DNA from: a virus
Direction: 5' to 3' (one strand)
Length of the DNA: 29,378 bases
Virus record (IMG/VR): IMGVR_UViG_3300038701_002636
Coordinates: 1-29,378 of that record
Both the position numbers and the translations under genes were made by a program. Under the pieces are notes generated by a model that did not search any database, had not been told where the DNA came from, and worked only from the letters and a program-made list of their open reading frames with translations. Positions within the stretch are counted from its first letter, which is position 1, and each line of letters starts with the position of its first letter. Of the stretch, positions 2,843 through 29,378 are shown piece by piece.

Positions 2843-3230
2843 GTATCACCTCTGCGTTGCTTTCCCGCAAAATCCGCTGGAAGCCTCTGGGGGTAAATGC
2901 ACGTCGACCGATCAGGGCAGCGCATTGGGTGACACAGTTCATCGAGAAATGCAGAGGATAGCGAAACTCGCTGGGCTCGAAGGGAAGGCGGTAGACGATC
3001 TCTGCGCGATCAAACCTGTCTTTCAGCAGGGCTTCCACCTCATCGTGGATGTGGGTGATTTTCAGGCTGGTCAGGCTGCGGCCCGGATCAAAGAAGAACC
3101 AGGTTTCGTCGATCGTATAGCCGAATGCCTCGACGTGGCCGAGAAACATCGTCCAGGAGCATTCGCCGCGGGCAACCTCTCTGATCGTGGCGGGGCGGTG
3201 AAAGGCGAAATAGATCTCATCAACGTCCAC
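2811..3230 (-). CDS. Conserved-looking phage protein between terminase and portal
   Basis: 139 aa, using the GTG at 3228-3230; this start overlaps the terminase stop by 11 bases and lacks a strong ribosome binding site, so it is uncertain. The N-terminal half is aromatic-rich (WFFFDPGRS). The C-terminal part reads MNCVTQCAALIGRRAFTPRG, a Cys-containing helix followed by a short loop and Tyr/Phe-rich helix. Proteins with a similar 'NCV...L...TP..L' ending occur near terminase genes of many podoviruses, and some resemble papain-like folds. I cannot place the catalytic His with certainty here, so enzymatic activity is not claimed. Confidence 0.6.
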   Translation of the reverse strand: MDVDEIYFAFHRPATIREVARGECSWTMFLGHVEAFGYTIDETWFFFDPGRSLTSLKITHIHDEVEALLKDRFDRAEIVYRLPFEPSEFRYPLHFSMNCVTQCAALIGRRAFTPRGFQRILRESNAEVIHGPQEHRGSS

Positions 3231-4737
3231 GGCGCAGGCTCACTTTCCGTTTTTTGGGCTTGGATGGTTTCTTTTTCTCGCGCGTCGGGTTGGTGATGAG
3301 CGCATAACCTTCGCCGCCGCCGATCAGAGCATTCTCGACAGCCTCAGCAATGTGCGAGTAGGAGTTTTTGACCGGGCGTGGCGAATACATGCCCGCGGTG
3401 CCCTTGATCTTGGCGTAGTGATAGCCCCCGGCGAGGGCTCGCTTGACCATCAGGCATGATTTGTTGACCGTCAGCCCGTTGCGCCGTTCCAGAACGCTTT
3501 CAACGGTGGATCGGCGGGTATCGGGATCGTTGTCGGAGGTCGAAGGCAGGATCTTCATGCCGAGGTTATCGAAGACGTCTCCTGCGGTGACCTCGGTGGC
3601 CTGGGTCCGGTCCAGCATTCGTGGATCGCCCCAAAACTCCGCGCCGAACCCGGGGTATTTCTGGGCCAGGTGCTTGCGGACACGCGGGGCGAACAGCGCG
3701 GCGCTCTCGTTGTCGCCGATCAGCTCGGACAGCACCCGCCAACCGCCGTTGACGTTCTGAAGGAAAGCCGCCGCCGGATCCCGGCCGCCGTCGAGACCAA
3801 CTATGATTGGAAGGCCTTCAACAGGCTCGTGATCCCGATCATGGACGTGCTCTGCTTCAGAGAAAGTCGGATAGACCGCTTTGCCGGCCATGTAGAGACC
3901 GACCTTGTTGAGCACACGTCGATCAATCCATGTCTTCTTTTTGCCTTGGATCTTCTCCAGATAGCTTTCTTTCAGCCATTTCTGGTTTTCGGCCAGTGGG
4001 TTGAACTCATATTGCGGTCGACCATCAACGATTTTCTCGATCAGGCCGGGCGGCTGGGTCAGAAACTTCCAATTCGCTGGCTTTTCATAGGCCATCGCCT
4101 CGTCTTCGGTCATTTCCGGCGGCAGAGGAATATCGCCGCGCATGTATGGCACCCAATGGCCCTCGACCGGCGCGTTCATGTCCATCCAGCCGCCGAACCA
4201 AGTGGCGCCGGCCCCGTTTTTCATGGAGGGGTAGCGGCCGCACCGGGAGATCAGCTCATCGATGACCTCTTTTTCGGTAAACTGGCCCTCGTTCTTGAAA
4301 AAACCGGTGATCTCGTAGGAGGCGCAGACCTGCTCCGCCACGTCAGCATCCGGGATCGCCAGGAAGATGACCTCGCAGTCAACTTTGGTGCCATCGCCTG
4401 ACGGATGATCTCGCTTGAGGTGGTGGAACATCGGTTCAGACCGGATGAAAGGCCCCCAAACATCCTCCGGAAACCAATCGAGCCAGGTTTTCACCGTGGT
4501 TTCGCGCAGCTCCTTGTAGGTTTCCCGGCTGATGATCCACCGGGTGCGCCGCACGTTGTCATAGTCAGGCTCTTGCTCACAGGCCAGCGCCCAGAGCTTA
4601 TGGCATGATGCGGTCGACGTTCCGGACCCAATCGGCCCCTGGACACAACAGAAGCGGTCCCGATTCCAAAAGAACTCCGTTAGGACCGCCCCATCAGGCT
4701 CGTACAGGAAATTCCCGCGTTCCGTGACCCGTAGCAT
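3220..4737 (-). CDS. terL: Terminase large subunit (DNA-packaging ATPase/nuclease)
   Basis: 505 aa. The protein pumps DNA into the procapsid through the portal and cuts concatemers. N-terminal ATPase: a P-loop-like GPIGSGTS at residues 34-41, then a strand ending in the E150 region (FFKNEGQF) where terminases carry the catalytic glutamate. C-terminal RNase-H-like nuclease: the first acidic residue is probably D316 in IIVGLDGGRDP, the second near GDPRMLDRT, and a late acidic helix near SHIAEAVENAL. The C-terminus is strongly basic (KKKPSKPKKRKVSLRRGR). The start shares one base with the stop of the upstream gene (TAATG). The P-loop is an unusual variant (no classical GK[ST]); a Ser/Thr replaces the usual Lys position, which may mean that the Lys is supplied elsewhere. 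Confidence 0.88.
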   Translation of the reverse strand: MLRVTERGNFLYEPDGAVLTEFFWNRDRFCCVQGPIGSGTSTASCHKLWALACEQEPDYDNVRRTRWIISRETYKELRETTVKTWLDWFPEDVWGPFIRSEPMFHHLKRDHPSGDGTKVDCEVIFLAIPDADVAEQVCASYEITGFFKNEGQFTEKEVIDELISRCGRYPSMKNGAGATWFGGWMDMNAPVEGHWVPYMRGDIPLPPEMTEDEAMAYEKPANWKFLTQPPGLIEKIVDGRPQYEFNPLAENQKWLKESYLEKIQGKKKTWIDRRVLNKVGLYMAGKAVYPTFSEAEHVHDRDHEPVEGLPIIVGLDGGRDPAAAFLQNVNGGWRVLSELIGDNESAALFAPRVRKHLAQKYPGFGAEFWGDPRMLDRTQATEVTAGDVFDNLGMKILPSTSDNDPDTRRSTVESVLERRNGLTVNKSCLMVKRALAGGYHYAKIKGTAGMYSPRPVKNSYSHIAEAVENALIGGGEGYALITNPTREKKKPSKPKKRKVSLRRGR

Positions 4738-11721: not shown

Positions 11722-11897
11722 TTTGAGCGCTCCCATTGCTCTTTGAGGCGCGCGCGCCATCCCTTCGGAGGTGGCCAAGACACTCCCCAATTCTGCAGGG
11801 TCTCGCGCTTCCAGCCTCCAGATTGAGTTTTCGCCTTTTCCACCTCATCAGGTGATGGAATAGAACGGTTCGCGTTTTCAGTTTTCTGGTCAGCCAT
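11718..11897 (-). CDS. Small phage protein with WGVxWPPPKGW motif
   Basis: 59 aa, ATG at 11895-11897 overlapping the DnaB stop by four bases. The C-terminal half carries NWGVSWPPPKGWRARL, a Trp/Pro-rich motif seen in small proteins of other alphaproteobacterial phages and prophages. The N-terminal half is polar. The 3' end overlaps the next gene as GTGA. Function unknown. The conserved motif and coupling make it a confident gene despite its size. Confidence 0.72.
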   Translation of the reverse strand: MADQKTENANRSIPSPDEVEKAKTQSGGWKRETLQNWGVSWPPPKGWRARLKEQWERSK

Positions 11898-13312
11898 CAG
11901 AACGCGATCCTTTCCTGCCCGTCATCCAGATCCCAGAAACGGTTCACGGAGAGGTCACAGCCAACGGTCACGGAGCCAATCTCCCCCATGCGCGCCTTTC
12001 CGATGATGATTTCCGCCTTGCCCTTCCATTGCTCGTATTCGGCTTCCCAATCCGCCCTGTCGGCTGGATCGCTAGGCACTGTGCACCGTGGAGGGGTCAG
12101 GAAGTATTGGGGCCGGAACACAAACAGCACATTGTCCGGCGCCATTTCGAGATCCCCGGAGCCGCGCAGGTGCGGCAGCCCGGGCCGCGCCTGTGGCCAC
12201 TGATCCCATTTTTCCAGCTTGGCTAGTGTCCGGTCGACCTGAGCCAGCGCCAGCACATGACAATCGAGCTGCTTCGCCACCTGCTTCAGATCATTTGCCA
12301 CCTGAGACAGGCGCACCACCGCGCTCTCGCCCCTGCCGCGCACCAACTGGATGTAATCGATCACCAGAAGTTTCAGCTTCAGGCCACGCTGCTCCATTTT
12401 GCGGGCGACCTTCTTGCCCTCAGAAAGGATCGCCGGGACGTCGCGCACTTTCTCCGAAAACACCTCAATCGGCAGATCTTGCTGCTGTTTCGCGGTCTCG
12501 ATCACCGTGCGGAAGGACTGCTCTGACATGGCGCGGTCATAGGTGTTGTAGGCCAGACCGGATTCCATGCTGTTCAACCGCTTGGACAGATCCTGCTCCG
12601 GCATTTCCAAGGACGCGAACCCCACGCCCTGACCGGCCCTAGCCGCCGAATGCGTGATATGCAGCGCCAAGGCAGTTTTCCCCATTGAGGTACTGCCAGC
12701 CAGCAGCGTGTAGTGCTGAGAATTCAGGGAGATTTCGTCATCCAGCGTCCGCAGCCCCGTCACCACACCGATGCGCCGTCCTTCTTTGACCTCGTGCATT
12801 TCCTCAATCATGAGCGTTTGAGCCTTCATGAACGACATGGTGCGAGGCTCTGCAGAAAGCTCCGCCCGCTCCATCATCATCAGCTCGACCTCTGCGGCCG
12901 CATCATCTGCGGCGCGGCCGGTGCGCAGATCCTCTGCCAGCTGCTCAAACCGCCCAGCCAGTGTCCGGCGCTGATACATTTCGGCGATATCGAGCGCATA
13001 ATCCTTGGCGGCAAACCCCGAAATACTGCCTGCCATAAGCCTGGCCAGATACCTTGCGCCGCCCAAGGTTTGCAGCGCCTCATGCGAAGCCAGATCAGCT
13101 GCCAGCGTGATCGGTGTCACCACATGGTCGCGCTCGATCCGCGCAGCCATGTTTTTCCAGATCGCGGCGTGCGTGTGTTCAAAGAAATGCTCCTCGCGCA
13201 CGATCACACTCACGTCGTGATATCGCTCATTTTGGGACAGAACCGCCCCAATCAATTGCTGTTCCAGTTCTGGCGACTGCGTTGATGTCGAGATAGATGC
13301 CTGAGTGTTCAT
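11897..13312 (-). CDS. dnaB: Replicative DNA helicase, DnaB family
   Basis: 471 aa, full length for DnaB. The N-terminal domain (residues about 12-120; PELEQQLIGAVL, FFEHTHAAIW, LGGARYLARL) binds primase and forms the collar. The C-terminal RecA-like ATPase has Walker A GSTSMGKT at 206-213, SLEMPEQDLSKRL, and Walker B VIDYIQLV near 318, then the LKQVAKQLDCHVLALAQVDR segment typical of DnaB. It unwinds the fork as a hexamer on phage replication. The ATG overlaps the initiator stop (ATGA), the usual lambda O-P-like pairing of initiator and helicase or loader. The phage therefore brings its own helicase instead of loading the host's. Confidence 0.95.
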   Translation of the reverse strand: MNTQASISTSTQSPELEQQLIGAVLSQNERYHDVSVIVREEHFFEHTHAAIWKNMAARIERDHVVTPITLAADLASHEALQTLGGARYLARLMAGSISGFAAKDYALDIAEMYQRRTLAGRFEQLAEDLRTGRAADDAAAEVELMMMERAELSAEPRTMSFMKAQTLMIEEMHEVKEGRRIGVVTGLRTLDDEISLNSQHYTLLAGSTSMGKTALALHITHSAARAGQGVGFASLEMPEQDLSKRLNSMESGLAYNTYDRAMSEQSFRTVIETAKQQQDLPIEVFSEKVRDVPAILSEGKKVARKMEQRGLKLKLLVIDYIQLVRGRGESAVVRLSQVANDLKQVAKQLDCHVLALAQVDRTLAKLEKWDQWPQARPGLPHLRGSGDLEMAPDNVLFVFRPQYFLTPPRCTVPSDPADRADWEAEYEQWKGKAEIIIGKARMGEIGSVTVGCDLSVNRFWDLDDGQERIAF

Positions 13313-16250: not shown

Positions 16251-16784
16251 ATGCGGGGATTGATGATCGCAGCGGCGCTGGTGCTGGCGGGACCTGCGTC
16301 CGGTGAAATTTCCACCTATGGCGCCGTTATTGTTGACTACGATGAGCAAGGATATGCTATCGCGTCCAATCTTGTAGACGGTCCGAACTGCCCGATGGCT
16401 GGCCCACAAGGTTATACTGGAACCCTGGTCTACAGTTGTGAAAACGAAGTGGAAAACCTCTCCATCATCCACGATTGCGACGACGAGTTTCTTTTCCTGC
16501 CTAGTGGGGAGGTCAGAGGGCAAATTACCTTTGATGGCTTCAAACCGCGCGGCATACGATTCATGTCGAATGGCAACCGCTTGACCTACAAAGAGACTTT
16601 TGTGCTGCCTGAGATCAAAACTCTTCTTCGTGGATCTCACTACACGACTTTCGCATTCAACCTCCCCAACGGAGGAAGAACGGATCTCGTCTTCAACACC
16701 TACGGGTTTGATCGAGCCATCAGTTCGTTCGAAGGCTGCAAAGGAAGCGGGATTGCCCCCCCTTGGTTCACGAAACCTGACTGA
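16251..16784 (+). CDS. Secreted small protein, probable lysogenic-conversion gene
   Basis: 177 aa, ATG at 16251 with GGGAG about 8 bases upstream. Residues 1-18 (MRGLMIAAALVLAGPASG) form a Sec signal peptide with likely cleavage after ASG. The mature part is beta-rich and has five or so cysteines (NCPMAGPQG, YSCENEV, IHDCDDE, FEGCKGSG) suited to periplasmic disulfides. It is a single gene, reading opposite to the replication operon and away from it, and sits beside the immunity genes. This is the usual setting of a moron expressed from the prophage to alter the host envelope (inference). I do not recognise the family. Confidence 0.7.
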   Translation: MRGLMIAAALVLAGPASGEISTYGAVIVDYDEQGYAIASNLVDGPNCPMAGPQGYTGTLVYSCENEVENLSIIHDCDDEFLFLPSGEVRGQITFDGFKPRGIRFMSNGNRLTYKETFVLPEIKTLLRGSHYTTFAFNLPNGGRTDLVFNTYGFDRAISSFEGCKGSGIAPPWFTKPD

Positions 16785-16808: not shown

Positions 16809-17060
16809 TCACCCCGCCTGCTCATCATCCTCCGGCACGACGCCGAGATATTCGTCAAATCCTTCAACGAGGATGCGAAGCCGCTCGTGCTCGAACTTAC
16901 CCCCGTTCAAGAACCGAGTGAGGGCTGACGGACAGTCGAACAGCCGAACACTGAGCTTGGTTTTCTTCAGACCAGTCTTTTCCAGAACTTCCGGCAGGGC
17001 CTTCTTTGCTGCTTCGCGAATCGCATCTGCCGTGGGGGGTACTTCGAACTCTCGCCACAT
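16809..17060 (-). CDS. Cro-like small HTH regulator
   Basis: 83 aa, ATG at 17058-17060 with AGGAAAA upstream. Residues about 28-65 (LKKTKLSVRLFDCPSALTRF then LNGGKFEHERL) form a helix-turn-helix of the Cro/CI type, followed by LRILVEGFDEYLGV. It diverges from the CI-like gene at 17209 across a 148-base region that holds three TAGTK-N4-MACTA dyads. This head-to-head arrangement is the classical cI/cro immunity switch. Which protein favours lysogeny is inferred from this layout only. Confidence 0.7.
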   Translation of the reverse strand: MWREFEVPPTADAIREAAKKALPEVLEKTGLKKTKLSVRLFDCPSALTRFLNGGKFEHERLRILVEGFDEYLGVVPEDDEQAG

Positions 17061-17086
17061 GGGGTTTTCCTTGCCTGTTTACCCCA

Positions 17087-17140
17087 TTCGTAGTTTCACA
17101 ACTATTCATTTGCAATAGTGTTGACACTACTGAGCGACAA
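17087..17140 (-). promoter_or_regulatory. Leftward promoters of the Cro-like gene with two operator dyads
   Basis: Minus strand: TTGTCG (17135-17140), 17 bases, TATTGC (17112-17117), and a second overlapping possibility TTGCAA (17110-17115), 17 bases, TACGAA (17087-17092). Operator dyads TAGTT-TCAC-AACTA (17091-17104) and TAGTG-TTGA-CACTA (17116-17129) lie within them, 25 bases apart. Confidence 0.5.
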
Positions 17141-17144
17141 GTTT

Positions 17145-17160
17145 GCACCCTCACGGGTGC
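17145..17160. repeat. Dyad GCACCC-N4-GGGTGC
   Basis: A perfect 6-bp dyad around TCAC between the two divergent regulator genes. A near copy (GAACCC-N4-GGGTGC, 17665-17680) lies upstream of luxR, and both are followed by WAAATT. It is either a hairpin or a second operator type. Confidence 0.5.
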
Positions 17161-17173
17161 TAAATTCCTGTTA

Positions 17174-17202
17174 TTGCTCACCAATAGTTTTCAGACTAAA
17201 AT
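17174..17202 (+). promoter_or_regulatory. Promoter of the CI-like gene, leaderless
   Basis: TTGCTC (17174-17179), 17 bases, TAAAAT (17197-17202). The gene's ATG (17209) begins 7 bases after the -10 box, at the expected transcription start. No Shine-Dalgarno sequence is present. The dyad TAGTT-TTCA-GACTA (17185-17198) occupies the spacer and -10 edge. Confidence 0.6.
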
Positions 17203-17208
17203 GTCGCT

Positions 17209-17541
17209 ATGACAAAGCAACAGACACCAGCATCAGCCGAAACCCTGCACCAATGGGAAACCATTGAAGCAGCGCGGGTAGCCAAAAAGATCAAGAAAAC
17301 TGAGCTATCCGAGGCAATCGATCGCCACGGGTCTTACTACTACCAGGCGGAGAAGTTTAAGTGGGCGATCCCACTTGAGGCCCTGTCAGTGTGGGCAAAG
17401 ATGCTGGAAATCAACCCGTCCCAGCTATTCCTTGAAGGCGAGGAAAATCCTCGCGCGAAGATCATAGCTCTGATTGCTGGTGCTGATGATTCGAAACTGC
17501 CGCAGGCGCTTCGGGTTCTAGAAGCTGTGTTAGCAAGCTAA
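17209..17541 (+). CDS. CI-like phage repressor (XRE-type HTH)
   Basis: 110 aa. Residues about 18-62 (IEAARVAKKIKKTELSEAID then RHGSYYYQAEKFKWAIPLEA) form an HTH, continuing into LSVWAKMLEINPSQLF, the usual last helix of XRE domains. The C-terminal 45 residues (AKIIALIAGADDSKLPQALR) are helical. There is no LexA-type protease domain, so RecA-driven self-cleavage is not expected and induction must come by another route. It diverges from the Cro-like gene and is followed by luxR and luxI. The likely role is lysogeny maintenance through the TAGTK-N4-MACTA operators. It appears to be translated from a leaderless message. Confidence 0.75.
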   Translation: MTKQQTPASAETLHQWETIEAARVAKKIKKTELSEAIDRHGSYYYQAEKFKWAIPLEALSVWAKMLEINPSQLFLEGEENPRAKIIALIAGADDSKLPQALRVLEAVLAS

Positions 17542-17623
17542 CCGCCTCGGCCAGCCCCTCATCACCCTTCTTTTTATGTATCTGCCCGACTATCCGGAGC
17601 AGCTGAACCCGCTTTGACATCAT
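17462..17623 (-). CDS. Candidate small protein, antisense to the repressor 3' end
   Basis: 53 aa from ATG at 17621-17623 (a second ATG follows directly), with AAGGGA upstream on the minus strand. The first 35 residues (MMSKRVQLLRIVGQIHKKKG then DEGLAEAVSLLTQLL) look like an amphipathic helical protein. The last 26 codons lie opposite the CI-like gene. Its 5' end faces luxR across the operator at 17634-17647. It could be an anti-repressor, an antisense transcript with no product, or chance. Evidence is composition, RBS and position only. Confidence 0.35.
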   Translation of the reverse strand: MMSKRVQLLRIVGQIHKKKGDEGLAEAVSLLTQLLEPEAPAAVSNHQHQQSEL

Positions 17624-17680
17624 ATTTCCCTTGTAGTTCTTAAACTATTACACCACTATCAATTGAACCCCCACGGGTGC
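17614..17680 (+). promoter_or_regulatory. luxR promoter/operator region
   Basis: TTGACA at 17614-17619 with a weak -10 (TTCTTA, 17637-17642) after 17 bases. The perfect dyad TAGTT-CTTA-AACTA (17634-17647) overlaps that -10 position. The GAACCC-N4-GGGTGC dyad lies downstream at 17665-17680. No classical 20-bp lux box was seen. Confidence 0.5.
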
Positions 17681-17706
17681 AAAATTTGTAACAAGGAGAA
17701 TTTGAC

Positions 17707-18291
17707 GTGTCTACAACTTTGCAATCTATCGGTGTAGAGCTAGAGAAACTTGGCTTTCCTAAGTATGCAATAGGAAAGGGTTTTCACGGCAGTGAACCAG
17801 CGTTCACGTCCACCTTTCGCGAAGATTGGCAGCAGCACTATTTTGAAAATGGATTTTTCAATCTCGACCCTCTGCCGTTCTGCGCGCTGGCCGGCACCGC
17901 CCCCATTCGCTGGACCGAGATCAAGCGACGCATGAGAAAGAGCCCGGTCATGAGTGCCGCCGAGGACTTCGGGATGATTGAAGGTTTTGCGTTCTCTCTG
18001 AATGGCTACGTGGTGAGCTCAGTCCACGATGGCAGCCTGACCACTGGTGATCTCAAGTTCGTTCAGGAGAGCATCAAACGGCTCGCAATCAGCTCATCTG
18101 ACATGATCGAACCTTTGACAAGTTCACAACAAGGCTTGGTCGATCTGCTAGGTGTAGGCCTCCAATACAACCAGATAGCCGATATATTGGGAATTTCAGT
18201 TGACGGAGTTAAGTCAGCCAAAAAGAGACTTTTTCAGAAATACGGCGCAAACTCGGACGCACAACTCCTGCGGATACTTCGAAACGAATAG
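17707..18291 (+). CDS. luxR: LuxR-family quorum-sensing receptor/regulator
   Basis: 194 aa, GTG start at 17707 with AAGGAG 8 bases upstream. Residues about 1-125 form the autoinducer-binding domain, with the conserved set at W41 and Y45 (WQQHY), D54-P55 (FNLDPL), W69 (IRWTEI), then the AEDFGMIEGFAFSLNG block. These are the residues that line the acyl-homoserine-lactone pocket in LuxR, TraR and LasR. Residues about 137-190 form the GerE-type HTH (LVDLLGVGLQYNQIADILGI then SVDGVKSAKKRLFQKYGA). It is about 40 residues shorter than usual, mainly at the N-terminus and linker, and the common Glu of the HTH (LTxRE) is Gln here. It lies between the CI-like gene and a LuxI homologue, so both signal maker and receptor are phage-borne. 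Confidence 0.92.
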   Translation: MSTTLQSIGVELEKLGFPKYAIGKGFHGSEPAFTSTFREDWQQHYFENGFFNLDPLPFCALAGTAPIRWTEIKRRMRKSPVMSAAEDFGMIEGFAFSLNGYVVSSVHDGSLTTGDLKFVQESIKRLAISSSDMIEPLTSSQQGLVDLLGVGLQYNQIADILGISVDGVKSAKKRLFQKYGANSDAQLLRILRNE

Positions 18292-18341
18292 CATGGCTTT
18301 GCCCGGCTAAATGGGCATTTCCGCTAGAATAGTTTGGCCAG

Positions 18342-18370
18342 ATACTCCTCTCCACATGAGCAAGGAGTAT
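18342..18370 (+). promoter_or_regulatory. Hairpin covering the luxI ribosome binding site
   Basis: ATACTCCT (18342-18349) pairs perfectly with AGGAGTAT (18363-18370) across a 13-base loop. The 3' arm contains the AAGGAG Shine-Dalgarno that serves the ATG at 18375. In the folded message the site would be closed, so luxI translation may need ribosome passage from luxR, temperature, or a bound factor. A 15-codon open frame (18356-18403) starts in the loop in another frame. Confidence 0.6.
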
Positions 18371-18374
18371 TTTC

Positions 18375-18956
18375 ATGAAGTCTTTCGCAGTCAGCTTCAC
18401 TGAGGCCACATCAATCGGACCCGCCTGGTCAGAATACTGGTCACTTCGGAAGGCTGAATTTGTCGACCATAAGGGCTGGGACCTTCCCCACATCGAGGGC
18501 GTTGAGTTCGACTGGTACGATAGACCAGGCGCGCGCTGGATCATTGTGACTGATGACGATGGGCGCTGTGTCGGCGGATCGCGGCTGCTACGAACCGATG
18601 CCCCTAGCTACGGCGGGTGCAGCTATATGCTGAGAGACGCTCAGTTGGGACTGATCTCAGGCATTCCAATCGGCATGCTTCCGCCCAACCTACCTCTAGA
18701 CCCTCAACTGTTTGAAGCAACGAGATTTTTTGTGGACAGAGCTCTGCCAATGAAACAGCAGATGCTTGTTCAGAGAGAAATCGTTGCTCGCACGGCTTCA
18801 ACTGCGCGCGAACTAGGCGGACGAGAGTTGATCGCCCTAATGCCCTCAAAGATATACAGAATATTCCGACGCTTTGGCTTCGAAGTGCGAGAGCACAGCG
18901 AAGTAGGTGTGATCGATAGCGTCCCCCACACAGTGGGTTGGCTTTCAGTTTTTTAG
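18375..18956 (+). CDS. luxI: LuxI-family acyl-homoserine-lactone synthase
   Basis: 193 aa, a typical LuxI length. It joins an acyl chain from acyl-ACP (or acyl-CoA) to S-adenosylmethionine to make the diffusible signal. The invariant residues are present: R25 and F29 (LRKAEF), W35, E44-F45-D46 and D49 (EFDWYD), R70 (GGSRLLRT), and E114/R117 (FEATRFFVDR). Catalytic-core residues are therefore intact and the gene has no frameshift, so an active enzyme is expected. Start ATG at 18375 with AAGGAG upstream inside a hairpin. The stop codon TAG is itself the first half of a TAGTK-N4-MACTA dyad. The acyl chain made cannot be predicted from the sequence. Confidence 0.93.
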   Translation: MKSFAVSFTEATSIGPAWSEYWSLRKAEFVDHKGWDLPHIEGVEFDWYDRPGARWIIVTDDDGRCVGGSRLLRTDAPSYGGCSYMLRDAQLGLISGIPIGMLPPNLPLDPQLFEATRFFVDRALPMKQQMLVQREIVARTASTARELGGRELIALMPSKIYRIFRRFGFEVREHSEVGVIDSVPHTVGWLSVF

Positions 18957-18999
18957 TTTTACCACTATTTTAGGTATTGCTTCGATAGTTTTATAACTA
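18954..18999. promoter_or_regulatory. Two operator dyads after luxI, before the next rightward genes
   Basis: TAGTT-TTAC-CACTA (18954-18967) and TAGTT-TTAT-AACTA (18986-18999), 32 bases apart, match the dyads at the regulator promoters. A TATAAC (18992-18997) inside the second could be a -10 box for the 19031 gene. This places the rightward small genes under the same repressor. Confidence 0.6.
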
Positions 19000-19030
19000 T
19001 AGCTTGGGTGTCATCAACAAGGTGACGCCC

Positions 19031-19291
19031 ATGCCGGAACAACAGGTCAAATACCCAAATTATGCCTGTCGGACCTGCAAGGACACTGGACTGAAGTACG
19101 AGGGGAACGGGCACAGGATGGCCGGATACCCCTGGGCCGAGGGCCATGTGTCTGTGGCGTGCACCTGCAAGAAGGGACGAGAGCTGTCCGTACCAGATGA
19201 CAGCGTGGCGAAGGAGCGGGCCGCTCAGGAAACGGCGGACCGCCTCATGCAGGAGCGAAAAGGCTATGGATTTGAATATCCCGATTATTGA
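19031..19291 (+). CDS. Small zinc-finger-like phage protein
   Basis: 86 aa from ATG at 19031, with AAGGTGA upstream; a TTG at 19004 would lie within the operator region and is rejected. Cysteines CRTCKDTGLKYEG and ACTCKKGRE resemble the DnaJ-type CxxCxGxG half-motifs and could bind one zinc ion. The C-terminal half is a charged helix (SVAKERAAQETADRLMQERK). It is the first gene behind the two operators after luxI and may be an early gene. The 3' end overlaps the next gene by 26 bases. Confidence 0.6.
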   Translation: MPEQQVKYPNYACRTCKDTGLKYEGNGHRMAGYPWAEGHVSVACTCKKGRELSVPDDSVAKERAAQETADRLMQERKGYGFEYPDY

Positions 19292-19514
19292 GCAGGCGCG
19301 GTGCCTCGCCCACGGAGACGATCCCGAGGTGAGCGAGCGCATGGCGAAACGGTTCGAGGATCTGAACCAGCCGGAGAAAGAGGCTGCGGAAGCCTACCGG
19401 GTTTTGGATCTGTTCCTGATCGCGGTGATGTGTGCCGGCCTGCTGCACCTCCTGCCGCTGGTCAAAACCGGCGTTTTCGCCCTGTTTGACCTGATCGCCC
19501 GCGTCCTTTCGTAG
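19266..19514 (+). CDS. Small membrane protein
   Basis: 82 aa from ATG at 19266, with GGAG about 11 bases upstream. The N-terminal 40 residues are soluble and charged. Residues about 47-80 (LDLFLIAVMCAGLLHLLPLV then KTGVFALFDLIARVL) form one or two membrane segments. Function unknown. Small membrane proteins in phage early regions can act in superinfection exclusion or as holin-like proteins; nothing here decides between them. Confidence 0.55.
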   Translation: MDLNIPIIEQARCLAHGDDPEVSERMAKRFEDLNQPEKEAAEAYRVLDLFLIAVMCAGLLHLLPLVKTGVFALFDLIARVLS

Positions 19515-21431: not shown

Positions 21432-22402
21432 GCATCGAGATCCGCACCCTTGCCCCGGGCGAGAAGATCTCGGAGCCCGGCTTCTACAACATCCCTCTGG
21501 ACGTCCACCACAGCCAGTGCTGCGAGGGTGTCAGCGTCACCAGTGGCGTGCTGCGCCGCATGGAACAGGAATACCCCGGTGACGTGTGGGCATTCCACGA
21601 CCTGAACACAGATCCGGACAAGTTCACGCGCGAGGATACCGACGCGCTGCGCCTTGGGCGCGCGATGGCTGCCTACATCGAGGGCGGCGCCGATGAGGTG
21701 GAGCAGCATTTCTATGTGCTTCCGGACAATCGCCCCAACCGCCCCACGCGCCAGCAGCTGGCCGCTATCAAGGAGGGCCGTGGCTCCAAGTCGGCCATGA
21801 CGTCCATGTCCTTCTGGAAAGAGGCTGACAACGATCCCCGTGACCAGATCACGGAAAGCCAATTCCAGCTGATCCAAGACATGGGCAAGGCACTCCAGCG
21901 CGACCCGGCCGCCGCAGCAATCCTTGGCGGTATCCCAGAGGTCACGATGGCATGGCAGGATCCACGCACCGGCATCTGGTGCCTATCCCGTCCCGACCAG
22001 GTGGCCTTCAACGGTTTCGTCGGGGACTACAAGAAGATCTCTCCGCAAGGTCAGGCCTTCGATCATGCACTGTGCTACCGCGCGATCGAGAAGCACCGCT
22101 ATGACATGCAGATCGCCTTTGCGTGTGAGGGGTTCGAGATCCTGACCGGCCACCAGCCGAACGCAGCCGGCCTCCTCTTCCAGAGTGACCGCCGCCCGCA
22201 CTTTTGCATCCCGATTGAGATCGGTCCGGAGGAAATCGCCTTCGGCACCTTCCACAACCACAAGAGCCTTCGCCGGTTCAAAGAATGTCTGGACGCTGGC
22301 TACTGGCCAGAGCCGGGTGAGCAGCCCGGTTACTTCCATTGGTCCGATGAGAAGCGCCAGCAAATCCTTGATGAAATGCAGACAGCAGGAGTTGCCCCAT
22401 GA
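21428..22402 (+). CDS. RecE-like PD-(D/E)xK exonuclease
   Basis: 324 aa. Residues about 165-245 carry the nuclease core: an acidic strand (WCLSRPDQVAFNGFVGDYKK) with the D-x-K pair in DYKK, followed by QIAFACEGFEILTG with the Gln seen in lambda-exonuclease/RecB-like members. This matches the PDDEXK domain found in phage RecE-type proteins (DUF3799). It would degrade one DNA strand to make 3' tails for annealing. The RecT gene follows with an ATGA overlap, the classical exonuclease-annealase pair. Confidence 0.82.
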   Translation: MSIEIRTLAPGEKISEPGFYNIPLDVHHSQCCEGVSVTSGVLRRMEQEYPGDVWAFHDLNTDPDKFTREDTDALRLGRAMAAYIEGGADEVEQHFYVLPDNRPNRPTRQQLAAIKEGRGSKSAMTSMSFWKEADNDPRDQITESQFQLIQDMGKALQRDPAAAAILGGIPEVTMAWQDPRTGIWCLSRPDQVAFNGFVGDYKKISPQGQAFDHALCYRAIEKHRYDMQIAFACEGFEILTGHQPNAAGLLFQSDRRPHFCIPIEIGPEEIAFGTFHNHKSLRRFKECLDAGYWPEPGEQPGYFHWSDEKRQQILDEMQTAGVAP

Positions 22403-23385
22403 GCAGCAATGAGTTGACCCCCACCCAACGCATGGCCCAGCAGGTCGCGGACGTCGAGTCCCTCGACCCCGGCCTTGGCTCCTACAATTTCAAGGATCTT
22501 GGGGCGGTGGTGAAATTTTCAGAGGTGATGTGCAAGGCCGGTGAAATGCTGCCGCAGCACCTCCAGAACAAGCCCGCTCTTTGCATGGCAGTCACCATGC
22601 GCGCCACGCATTGGGGCTTTGATCCCTTTGCCTTGGCCATGGAGACATATCAGGCCAAATCCGGCGGCCCTATTGGCTATCAGGCCAAGGTATTCACCGC
22701 AGCCCTGCAAAATGCTGGCGTCAAACTGCGCTACCGCTACGAGGGGAAAATCACCATCCTCGACAAGCCGGTGAAATCCCCCAAAGGAAACCAGATTGCA
22801 GCGCGCACTGCCACCGGTGACCGGAAGTGCATCGCATATGCTGAGGTAGGTGGCGAGGTTCTTGAGGTCGAGAGCATGACGCTCGATCAAATCACCATCA
22901 AGAACTCTCCGGAATGGCACAACAATCCGGACCAACAGTTGGCCTACTACACAGGCCGCATGTGGGCCCGTCGCTATCGCTCTGACGTCATCATGGGCGC
23001 CTACTCCACCGATGAGGTCGAGGAAATGCAGCCGATGCGCGACGTGACCCCAGAGCCCAAGGACGACGGCTTCGCAGCCATGGCGCGCAACGCCCGCCAA
23101 CAAGCCGCGCCCGCCGAAGACGTCACCCCCGAAGAAGATCCCAACACCCTCGACGGCGAAATCCTCCCCGCCGACGAGGAGGCGGCCCCTGTCGAGCAGG
23201 AGAGCCAGGAGGGCGGTGGCACCCCGGAAAGATCGTTTGAATACGACGAGGGGGCCACCGCGTTCCGCCAGGGCAAGGGCGCCAGCGATTGCCCGTATGA
23301 GGATGATGACCAGCAGCGCACGGATTGGCTGGCGGGCTGGAATGCCGCCTACAACGAGGCCGAGCAGGAAGGCGGTGACGAATGA
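22399..23385 (+). CDS. recT: RecT-family single-strand annealing protein with RMF-like tail
   Basis: 328 aa. Residues about 1-215 match RecT: FKDLGAVVKFSEVMCKAGEM, HWGFDPFALAMETYQ, GPIGYQAKVFTAALQNAG, then YYTGRMWARRYRSDVIMGAYS with DEVEEM. It binds single strands and anneals complementary DNA without ATP. Residues about 220-285 are acidic, Pro-rich and disordered. Residues about 286-325 (YDEGATAFRQGKGASDCPYE ... WLAGWNAAYNEA) resemble the ribosome modulation factor fold (GxxA...CPY...W..GW). This tail module is found on several phage proteins; its role here is unclear. Confidence 0.9.
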   Translation: MSSNELTPTQRMAQQVADVESLDPGLGSYNFKDLGAVVKFSEVMCKAGEMLPQHLQNKPALCMAVTMRATHWGFDPFALAMETYQAKSGGPIGYQAKVFTAALQNAGVKLRYRYEGKITILDKPVKSPKGNQIAARTATGDRKCIAYAEVGGEVLEVESMTLDQITIKNSPEWHNNPDQQLAYYTGRMWARRYRSDVIMGAYSTDEVEEMQPMRDVTPEPKDDGFAAMARNARQQAAPAEDVTPEEDPNTLDGEILPADEEAAPVEQESQEGGGTPERSFEYDEGATAFRQGKGASDCPYEDDDQQRTDWLAGWNAAYNEAEQEGGDE

Positions 23386-26896: not shown

Positions 26897-27163
26897 ATGC
26901 CGAAAGACTACACCATGGAAGAGATCAGCCTGTTCGGCTCCGTATCTTGGGCCGCAATGCGGTGTGGTCTGTCGCGCGAGAACTTCAAGAAAAAGAGGCC
27001 GCAGCTGGAGACCGATGGTTTCCCAAGGCCCGACAAGATCACAGGCACCTATCTAAAAGCCGATGTTGATGCTTGGATAGAGCGTCGGCGTCAGGTGCCG
27101 GATCGAATCCGTGAGGTACGAGCTGACAAACCAGAAGAGGAGTTCAACTTTGACAGGATATAA
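26897..27163 (+). CDS. xis: Excisionase (Xis/AlpA-like)
   Basis: 88 aa, ATG at 26897. Residues about 15-65 form a winged-helix DNA-binding domain as in MerR/AlpA-like excisionases (FGSVSWAAMRCGLSRENFKK, GFPRPDKITGTYLKADVDAW, IERRR). The ending 'LKADVDAWI' is a family hallmark. It lies directly before the integrase and overlaps it, as expected for a directionality factor that turns the recombination toward excision. Confidence 0.75.
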   Translation: MPKDYTMEEISLFGSVSWAAMRCGLSRENFKKKRPQLETDGFPRPDKITGTYLKADVDAWIERRRQVPDRIREVRADKPEEEFNFDRI

Positions 27164-28379
27164 GAAAGCGCTGTGGGACGGTTCAGATCCGTTCTATGCG
27201 CCAGGGATCAGCTGGAGCGGGACAAACCCGGATCGGCAATATGCACAGTGGAAGCCGCCCGCCAAATACAAAAAGGCGGGCTATTCTATTGGAGCGGTCA
27301 AGCTCGACCCTCCCGGTCACAGGAATGACGAACACCAGCCGGCGCGTGCGCTGCGGTGCCGTGAGCTGACCAAGGACATGCTCAAATGGTTCGAGGAGCA
27401 GGATAAGCCCAAGGTCGACCCGACCACATGGAAATATCTGATCGCGCGTTACCAGACGGACGAATATTCTCCGTTTCAGGATGTGAAGTCGAACACCCGC
27501 GAGGGGTATATCCAGCAGCTACAAAAGCTGGAGGATGTGATCGGCCACACCAAGATCTCCGCGATGACCTATGAGGCAATCAAGACGCTTCAGAAGGCCA
27601 TGGAGAAGAAGGGGCGAACCGTTGCTTACATCCATCGGTTCTTCAACACCCTCCGCCGGGTTGCGAACTATGGCAAGGCGCTCAAGATCCAGCCAGCGCG
27701 CGACGTGGCCGAGACCCTGAGCGAAATTCGGTTCCAGAACAGTGCGGCACGGCAGGTGGCGCCGACGCGTGATCAGGTATATGCGATCATCGCCGCGGCC
27801 GATGCCGAGGGGGCCAAGGCCTTTGCGCTTGGGATCATGATGCAATACGAGTTCGCCCTTCGCGCCGTCGACGTGCGCGGGCAGTGGCTCAAGACTGACG
27901 AGCTGGAGGGCGGCATCATCCGCAACGGCAAGCGGTGGCAGGACGGCCTGACCTGGGACATGATTGATCACGATCTAAACCGGATGGAGAAGCTGATCTC
28001 GAAAACGGCCAAGAGCCTTCCCGAGCCATATTCGTTCGACCTGACCGGCACCCCGGAGATCCGCCATCGGCTCGCCGACCTTCGCCCGGAGAACGCTGTG
28101 GGCCCGGTGATCGTATCACCCCGCACCGGCCTGCCCTACACCATCTATGGTTGGTCGCAGGCATGGGCCCGCCTCCGGAGCAAAGCAGGGCTGCCAAAGG
28201 ATCTATGGATGATGGACACGCGGGCCGGGGCAGTCACAGAGGCCAAGAGCCTTGGCGTTGACCCCTACATGCTTCGGGATGCAGCCCAGCATAAGGACGT
28301 CAACACGACCAGCCGGTACTCACGGGCCCGGTCTGATGCGGCGAACAATGTTGTGAAGTTGCGTCAGTCTCGCGGGTGA
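27150..28379 (+). CDS. int: Tyrosine integrase
   Basis: 409 aa from a TTG at 27150 with GAGGAG seven bases upstream; a GTG at 27111 (422 aa) is the alternative. The N-terminal arm-binding part is residues 1-80. The core-binding domain (TTWKYLIARYQTDEYSPFQD, KTLQKAMEKKGRTVAYIHRF) is about residues 95-200. In the catalytic domain, R in EFALRAVDVRG, then a D-x-R variant of the HxxR box (MMDTRAGAVTEAKSLG), H in AAQHKDVNTT and nucleophile Y in TSRYSRA. It integrates the phage at the 3' end of tRNA-Thr via the adjacent attP. The HxxR His replaced by Asp is seen in a subset of phage integrases. Confidence 0.92.
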   Translation: MTGYKKALWDGSDPFYAPGISWSGTNPDRQYAQWKPPAKYKKAGYSIGAVKLDPPGHRNDEHQPARALRCRELTKDMLKWFEEQDKPKVDPTTWKYLIARYQTDEYSPFQDVKSNTREGYIQQLQKLEDVIGHTKISAMTYEAIKTLQKAMEKKGRTVAYIHRFFNTLRRVANYGKALKIQPARDVAETLSEIRFQNSAARQVAPTRDQVYAIIAAADAEGAKAFALGIMMQYEFALRAVDVRGQWLKTDELEGGIIRNGKRWQDGLTWDMIDHDLNRMEKLISKTAKSLPEPYSFDLTGTPEIRHRLADLRPENAVGPVIVSPRTGLPYTIYGWSQAWARLRSKAGLPKDLWMMDTRAGAVTEAKSLGVDPYMLRDAAQHKDVNTTSRYSRARSDAANNVVKLRQSRG

Positions 28380-28396: not shown

Positions 28397-28577
28397 TTCC
28401 AACAGGCGATAAATTTAATCCAACAGCTACTGAAATCAGTGAATTAATTTCCGATTTGTAATCAGTAGGTCCGCGGTTCGAGTCCGTGTGGGGGCACCAT
28501 AAAATCAATAACTTACGCCACACCACGAAAAAAGTTGGAACGCAGTTGGAACAACCAATCGCTCCGGACATTCCAAC
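28397..28577. other. attP: attP with tRNA-Thr core and arm-type repeats
   Basis: The core is 28453-28499: the 3' half of tRNA-Thr with anticodon TGT in loop TTTGTAA, the T arm (CGCGGTTCGAGTCCGTG) and the acceptor end GGGGGCACCA. The 5' half of a tRNA is absent: pairing of the anticodon stem fails at 28452, marking the core edge. Repeats of TTCCAAC or its complement flank it at 28397-28403, 28418-28424 (one mismatch), 28534-28540, 28545-28551 and 28571-28577, the expected integrase arm sites. On integration this fragment restores the host tRNA gene. Confidence 0.85.
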
Positions 28578-28607
28578 ACGGTGTCCGGGGCATCTAACCC
28601 GATCCTG

Positions 28608-28847
28608 CTACTGCGGCTGGTTGTGATCGCTAAACAGGGTGCCAATACGCTCCAGCTTGTCGGCATTGCATCGAGAGCTGTGCTTCCAGCCCAAGGCCAA
28701 TTCAGCAAATCCCCCCTCAGTGGCCGGGCCCTTCACCGGCTCAGCGCAGGGCGTGGTCAGAGCCTTGGGGATCTCGCGCTCCACATAGACCGGCTCCCGG
28801 CTACATGCGGTCATAAGCATCGCGCAGAAAATCAGACAGCGGCGCAT
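28608..28847 (-). CDS. o-spanin (Rz1-like lipoprotein)
   Basis: 79 aa, ATG at 28845-28847 with AGGAGG upstream. The signal peptide ends in the lipobox LMTAC, giving lipidated C15 (MRRCLIFCAMLMTACSREPV). The mature part is short and polar. It overlaps the end of the i-spanin gene by 47 bases in another frame, the classical overlapping Rz/Rz1 layout. It sits in the outer membrane and pairs with the i-spanin to fuse the two membranes at the last step of lysis. Confidence 0.8.
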   Translation of the reverse strand: MRRCLIFCAMLMTACSREPVYVEREIPKALTTPCAEPVKGPATEGGFAELALGWKHSSRCNADKLERIGTLFSDHNQPQ

Positions 28848-29103
28848 CGTATCCCTCCTGGTTGCGGATGTGGCGCACGGTCGCATCAAGGTCGCGGCGC
28901 TCTTCCTCCATTCGGCTGAGGTGAGCATCCAGCACGCGGGCCGCCGCTGCTGCATCCTCCAGCTGCCTCTCGGCCACGGCCAACGCCCGCTCAGCGGCCC
29001 CCAGATCCTCGCGCAGTTGCCCATTTCGCCAAAGCAGAAAGCCCGCCCCCCCCATGCAGAGGACAGCGAGGCTCAGGGCGCCTATGGCGAGGTATCGGCT
29101 CAC
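28801..29103 (-). CDS. i-spanin (Rz-like)
   Basis: 100 aa, GTG start at 29101-29103 overlapping the endolysin stop as GTGA. One N-terminal membrane helix (YLAIGALSLAVLCMGGAGFL) is followed by a long periplasmic coiled coil (QLREDLGAAERALAVAERQL, RMEEERRDLDATVRHIRNQE). It partners the o-spanin encoded over its 3' end. Confidence 0.8.
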   Translation of the reverse strand: MSRYLAIGALSLAVLCMGGAGFLLWRNGQLREDLGAAERALAVAERQLEDAAAAARVLDAHLSRMEEERRDLDATVRHIRNQEGYDAPLSDFLRDAYDRM

Positions 29104-29378
29104 AGGAACGCATCCTTGGCGGCCAGCAGCACGGCGCGGGCGATAGCACGCTTTTCGTGTGGCTCATCCGTCGCCTGCTGACCGCGTGGGGAAGACCCAA
29201 AGAACGGCTCGATCAGGATCGCCGGCGCCTGCCCGCTCATCAAGCTTTCAGAGCCGCGCCCACTGCGACGGATCTTGACGCCGCGGTCCCGAAGATCCAG
29301 CGCCTCAATCAAGCGCCCCTGCATCGCGTCCGCGAAGGCCAGAGACTTCCGGGAGCCAGAGGAAAGAACCTCGGTGCT
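29100..29378 (-). CDS. N-acetylmuramoyl-L-alanine amidase endolysin (C-terminal part)
   Basis: Only the last 92 residues are in the window; the frame is open to the right edge. The sequence GSRKSLAFADAMQGRLIEAL then GVKIRR and PAILIEPFFGS matches the C-terminal half of Amidase_3 enzymes, including the catalytic Glu strand (ILIEP) and the helix before it. It cleaves the amide bond between MurNAc and the stem peptide. Followed by the spanin genes, as in a normal lysis cassette. The zinc-ligand half and any export signal are outside the window. Confidence 0.82.
   Translation of the reverse strand, partial: STEVLSSGSRKSLAFADAMQGRLIEALDLRDRGVKIRRSGRGSESLMSGQAPAILIEPFFGSSPRGQQATDEPHEKRAIARAVLLAAKDAFL

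Follow-up and report, generated by a model that had tools for sequence, protein, structure and literature searches.

A four-gene region at positions 16809-18956 of the IMG/VR virus record IMGVR_UViG_3300038701_002636 is, with a probability of about 0.8, a quorum-sensing lysis-lysogeny switch through which a temperate phage takes a lactone-based census of its lysogens. The record, from a marine virus of bacteria, is a single stand-alone contig of 29,378 bases (59% guanine plus cytosine), analysed over its whole length and called the window here. Its immunity module consists of hth on the minus strand and of xre, luxR and luxI on the plus strand, so that hth and xre face away from each other and xre, luxR and luxI follow in a row. 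The evidence lies in these genes and their residues, their synteny and position, purifying selection, operator-like sites and the lack of an S24-type CI. This kind of switch is known from two prophages of Phaeobacter inhibens T5 (Bunsick et al., PMC13345283, a bioRxiv preprint of 3 July 2026), and the module described here is a new member of it.

Genes and operator-like sites of the module

The predicted acyl-homoserine-lactone synthase gene, luxI (18375-18956, + strand; 193 amino acids), has a clear Shine-Dalgarno sequence. Its product matches Pfam Autoind_synth (PF00765; E 2.1e-14, 53.9 bits, cut-off 24) and PHROG 31881 (E 6e-28), and eight of nine catalytic residues are present (R25, F29, W35, D46, D49, R70, E114 and R117). 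The predicted acyl-homoserine-lactone receptor and transcription factor is encoded by luxR (17707-18291, + strand; 194 amino acids), which has a GTG start and a good Shine-Dalgarno sequence. LuxR matches Autoind_bind (PF03472; E 1.7e-15, 57.2 bits, cut-off 23) and GerE (PF00196; E 6.2e-6, 26.2 bits, cut-off 23.5) and carries the ligand residues W41, Y45, D54, P55 and W69. An earlier sequence-only reading had proposed a luxR-luxI pair within a phage immunity region and had named all of these LuxR residues but P55; the Pfam matches above cut-offs and the location inside a temperate-phage contig bear it out. Its coordinates for the region, 16809-19514, are also right, with the module proper ending at palindromes at 18954-18999 and the open reading frames (ORFs) at 19004-19514 beginning the next operon.

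The counter-oriented gene hth (16809-17060, - strand), named by position and orientation, encodes a small regulator of 83 amino acids. It would be the counterpart of the P. inhibens prophage gene of that name, the P_lysis product, with a presumed role in DNA binding. The presumed first gene of the lysogeny operon is xre (17209-17541, + strand), which encodes a small helix-turn-helix (HTH) regulator of 110 amino acids; it has no visible Shine-Dalgarno sequence, and its mRNA is possibly leaderless. The layout agrees with the "CI-like/Cro-like" switch described in the sequence-only reading, though not with a classical CI. An S24 peptidase is the mark of a RecA-cleavable CI. None occurs in the window or in six related records, and a classical SOS-cleavable CI near the module was rejected for this reason.

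In the 29-kb window, 0.02 copies of the palindrome TAGT-N6-ACTA are expected; there are six, and the module contains them all. Three stand between hth and xre (TAGTTTCACAACTA at 17091-17104, TAGTGTTGACACTA at 17116-17129 and TAGTTTTCAGACTA at 17185-17198, the last overlapping the presumed P_lysogeny start region), one before luxR in the xre-luxR spacer (TAGTTCTTAAACTA at 17634-17647) and two after luxI (TAGTTTTACCACTA at 18954-18967 and TAGTTTTATAACTA at 18986-18999, the latter directly before the rightward early operon), all given on the + strand. Four relatives carry all six sites at matching places, and the divergent record G005 has five exactly and the sixth with one mismatch; the motif is absent from G001, a related phage with a non-quorum-sensing immunity region. 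Such a layout resembles the pattern expected for a phage repressor, whose putative operators would cover P_lysis and P_lysogeny as well as the rightward early promoter.

A second motif, ACCC-N4-GGGT, is a candidate LuxR site. The window has only two copies, against 0.35 expected and a count of two reached by 2 of 100 shuffles: the lux-box-like sequence GCACCC-TCAC-GGGTGC upstream of xre (17145-17160, + strand) and GAACCC-CCAC-GGGTGC upstream of luxR (17665-17680, + strand). In both cases a TAGT site lies about 30-36 bases further upstream. The copy upstream of xre recurs at the same place in the related loci L110-L113 and is degenerate in L106, the locus of G005.

Conservation of the module and its phage lineage

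LuxI, LuxR and XRE each retrieve the same four IMG/VR relatives. In all of them the module likewise separates the leftward replication genes from the rightward early operon. The complete synteny of four genes also stands at this position in G005 (IMGVR_UViG_2843420179_000003), a fifth record with a 42% identical terminase, with identities of 66% for hth, 53% for xre, 61% for luxR and 67% for luxI. Closer to the window, xre is 99% identical in the four relatives and hth 92-98% identical in L110-L113. The ratio of nonsynonymous to synonymous substitution rates (dN/dS) is about 0.04 for both luxR and luxI against records at dS 0.76-0.94, which argues that the two genes are under purifying selection and have been kept functional. 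The sequence-only reading had proposed to check whether other phages have the pair together with the same repressor genes, and five further records do. It had named as a refutation that the stretch could be a recent insertion from a host, missing in related phages; this fails.

In the related phage G001, whose terminase is 69% and integrase 50% identical to those of the window phage, the module site is taken by an HTH gene of Cro/C1 type with a small gene in the opposite orientation, and lux genes are missing. The site therefore appears to be an exchangeable immunity region. Adjoining hth, at 16251-16784 (+ strand), lies a gene whose small product begins much like a signal peptide; G005 encodes a 29% identical relative, and an ORF in G001 looks similar.

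Among known isolated phages, LuxI finds matches of 27-35% identity only and LuxR finds none. These distant LuxI-like proteins belong to Acinetobacter phage MD-2021a (CAKLQH020000009), Pseudomonas phage Y5 (OQ572407) and MT835580, with unrelated hosts. No close relative was found in GTDB species genomes either, where the best of 395 genomes in the family of Paracoccus aurantiacus reaches 40-41%.

The remainder of the window is that of a temperate phage. It encodes a T7/podovirus-type head-tail adaptor (1074-2588, - strand), a terminase (3220-4737, - strand), a DnaB helicase (11897-13312, - strand), a rightward early operon (19004 onward, + strand) with PDDEXK DUF3799, RecT (22399-23385, + strand) and YbcO genes, a tyrosine integrase (27111-28379, + strand; phrog_1 integrase, E 3.5e-19) and lysis genes (28608-29324, - strand). 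The nearest terminases of isolated phages, that of Burkholderia phage BcepC6B among them, are about 30-40% identical. An attP core equal to a tRNA gene 3′ end with CCA is located at 28455-28499 (+ strand) and occurs without mismatch in the host tRNA sequence of seven Phaeobacter-type genomes; the hosts are probably Roseobacter-group bacteria.

In the window the attP core is joined straight to the lysis genes. Record G007 has this integrase and core as well, but there unrelated DNA with a different integrase comes next, and the lysis genes lie at the opposite contig end. The window therefore appears to have the attP layout of DNA that has been excised or packaged, a hint that the phage is active. 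When positions 28455-28607 are compared with the integrated relative at L110 (18241 onward), identity stops exactly at the tRNA 3′ end.

Proposed mechanism and relation to known systems

Prophages A and B of P. inhibens T5 each carry a counter-oriented hth gene and an xre-luxR-luxI operon (PMC13345283). Their lactones have been identified, and the autoinducers maintain lysogeny: LuxR with lactone activates P_lysogeny, and blocking induces the phage. Enzyme activity, LuxR dependence, the sign of regulation and induction on blocked signalling have thus been demonstrated for these two modules (PMC13345283). The same study reports LuxI systems in 53 of 93 Roseobacter prophages, sorted into ten types (A-J) delimited at 80% identity, and its authors liken the logic to that of arbitrium.

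Genome G407 is 99% identical to a plasmid region of DSM 17395 and is therefore very probably P. inhibens. Besides a PgaI/PgaR-like pair and one more LuxI-like gene, it contains two modules of the arrangement described here, which we take as likely counterparts of the published prophage modules. If G407 is T5 or like it, the LuxI of the window, 32% and 35% identical to those of the two modules, is apparently of neither type A nor type B. Read by eye, one G407 module has a palindrome of its own, TCACCT...AGGTGA, in the spacer between hth and xre, before luxR and after luxI, places that match those of TAGT-N6-ACTA in the window; a test for paired palindromes under strict settings found none in the P. 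inhibens modules. Different proteins and a different palindrome at matching places suggest the same architecture built with other proteins and another operator. The window phage shares with prophages A and B its gene order and orientation, temperate character, probable Roseobacter-group host and lack of a classical CI. However, it differs from them apparently in its LuxI type, and also in its operator sequence and its lineage: its terminase resembles that of BcepC6B and its head-tail adaptor is of T7/podovirus type, where prophages A and B are of Mu-type or ep3-like myovirus kind.

Further LuxI-like genes were encountered. The additional one in G407 is chromosomal (C6:1735945-1736472), is also present in other genomes of the genus and lies outside any xre-luxR-luxI module, and no adjoining LuxR gene was noticed. 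The 41-kb replicon NZ_CP010703.1 (pP24_g of P. inhibens P24) is a phage-plasmid with repA/repB, terminase, portal and tail genes; it carries a small counter-oriented gene with HTH, LuxR and LuxI genes (L102 6292-8561; L144) and has ATCATAC/GTATGAT palindromes in the spacers. A LuxI like that of pP24_g also occurs in two more IMG/VR records, 40.6-41.4 kb long (L149-L151), and a small replicon or contig of a Phaeobacter-type genome (L199; G406 contig 7, 40,170 bases) carries xre-luxR-luxI with a further XRE gene downstream.

For the window phage, we propose that P_lysogeny, to the left of xre, would transcribe xre-luxR-luxI in a lysogen and that LuxI would synthesize an acyl-homoserine lactone. 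LuxR bound to this lactone would activate its own operon, probably via ACCC-N4-GGGT, and so create positive feedback. XRE, Hth or both would bind the six TAGT-N6-ACTA operators and thereby repress P_lysis, the promoter of the counter-oriented hth, along with the replication genes to the left and the early operon to the right. With many lysogens nearby, the signal would be high and the phage would stay dormant; if the signal fell, or if a competing one blocked LuxR, P_lysis would win and the phage would be induced.

Several observations weigh against this proposal. Hth has no match in Pfam, PHROG or NCBIfam (no recognisable domain), and its AlphaFold model is all-helical and weak (predicted local distance difference test score 67), with no significant match in the PDB. 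XRE yields weak repressor matches only (phrog_3 transcriptional repressor, E 4.6e-4), and the structure models of both proteins are of low confidence, too weak to prove HTH folds. The DNA-binding domain of LuxR has Q141 in place of the usual E. The ninth canonical residue of LuxI, F84, is replaced by Y84, so that the earlier claim of all invariant residues was slightly overstated, although the eight that it named are there; LuxI of the P24 plasmid and of the prophage modules of P. inhibens has this tyrosine too. No consensus sigma-70 promoter was found. XRE acts oppositely in the two phages of the preprint (PMC13345283), and because LuxI and LuxR (the latter 23% and 26% identical) are so distant from the two G407 modules, sign and ligand could differ. 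Signal production, LuxI and LuxR activity, the pairing of proteins with sites and the sign of regulation are points that we infer for this phage.

The sign might be the opposite, with liganded LuxR and XRE activating hth and causing lysis at high signal. The Aeromonas phages ARM81ld and Apop have such a layout, a small XRE gene and LuxR beside a counter-oriented small gene, and there C4-homoserine lactone drives lysis (PMC10432266, PMC9894119). Those phages, however, have no luxI, respond to a host-made signal and possess a separate cI, whereas here luxI is part of the operon and no S24 CI was found in the window, which sets the module apart from the Aeromonas XRE-LuxR group with its small ORF. 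Where the synteny matches and includes luxI, the modules maintain lysogeny (PMC13345283), and we regard an inverted sign as unlikely. The luxR-luxI pair might instead be cargo that lies near the immunity genes incidentally and serves above all to manipulate the quorum sensing of the host, such as that of antibiotic or biofilm genes; a precedent is prophage A, whose autoinducer activates host quorum sensing in P. inhibens (PMC13345283). But the operators are common to the whole module, its position between divergent early regions is fixed, and in G001 the entire region is replaced by a non-quorum-sensing repressor pair; cargo as the main role is improbable, though cargo and switch roles can coexist. 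In a window that is a single virus contig, one might suspect that the genes are non-functional or decaying, or that host luxRI was joined to a phage by faulty assembly, yet the reading frames are intact, dN/dS is low and the arrangement recurs in several independent records, which makes this explanation extremely unlikely. Host insertion and assembly artefact were rejected on the basis of the shared position in independent records and purifying selection. Judged from these comparisons, the region is a phage module that evolved with its phages, not a host insertion.

The proposed lysogeny-promoting switch has a parallel in arbitrium, the AimP/AimR/aimX system of SPbeta-group Bacillus phages, in which a diffusible signal made by the phage conveys the density of lysogens and favours lysogeny. 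By analogy, the present module would act as a phage-made lysogen-density signal that biases the decision toward lysogeny. The parts are not homologous, however: the signal maker is LuxI and the receptor LuxR instead of AimP and AimR, with an acyl-homoserine lactone in place of a peptide and LuxR in place of a tetratricopeptide-repeat receptor. The sequence-only reading had suggested a self-contained lactone analogue of arbitrium, which is well supported by analogy with modules that have the same genes, order and orientation (PMC13345283). Novelty of the idea itself is not supported, since it was demonstrated earlier in that study. A 2024 paper describes an Amphritea-linked coral phage with raiI and bjaR1 (PMC11309003), likewise an acyl-homoserine-lactone synthase and a LuxR in one phage genome when compared by description, although its host is gammaproteobacterial. 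Because of these two studies, the idea counts as already published and tested in close analogues.

Possible exchange of luxR-luxI cassettes

In a comparison of window positions 17550-19000 with L111-L113, the luxR-luxI pair looks swapped between otherwise near-identical modules. G007 and the records G008 and G009 are 96-100% identical in DNA across hth and xre (16950-17549), drop to 79-90% across luxR and luxI and return to 97% just past luxI. One luxR-luxI allele is common to the window and G007, another to G006, G008 and G009. The simplest reading is that luxR-luxI may have been exchanged as a pair between the flanking palindromes, with the switch left in place. More tentatively, signal and immunity specificity might evolve apart, the luxR-luxI cassette being swapped at operator-flanked breakpoints while hth, xre and the six operators stay constant; we hold this to be possible but doubtful.

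The operator map, comprising six conserved palindromes and two candidate LuxR sites, is not mentioned in the text of PMC13345283 and makes the logic of such switches directly testable. Since identity to known modules is low, the lactone may be new, and the principle that phages count lysogens by their own homoserine lactones would be extended to a distinct signal type and another phage lineage. If cassettes are indeed swapped, phages of one immunity type could change their chemical dialect, which would be a step further than the exchange of whole modules described to date.

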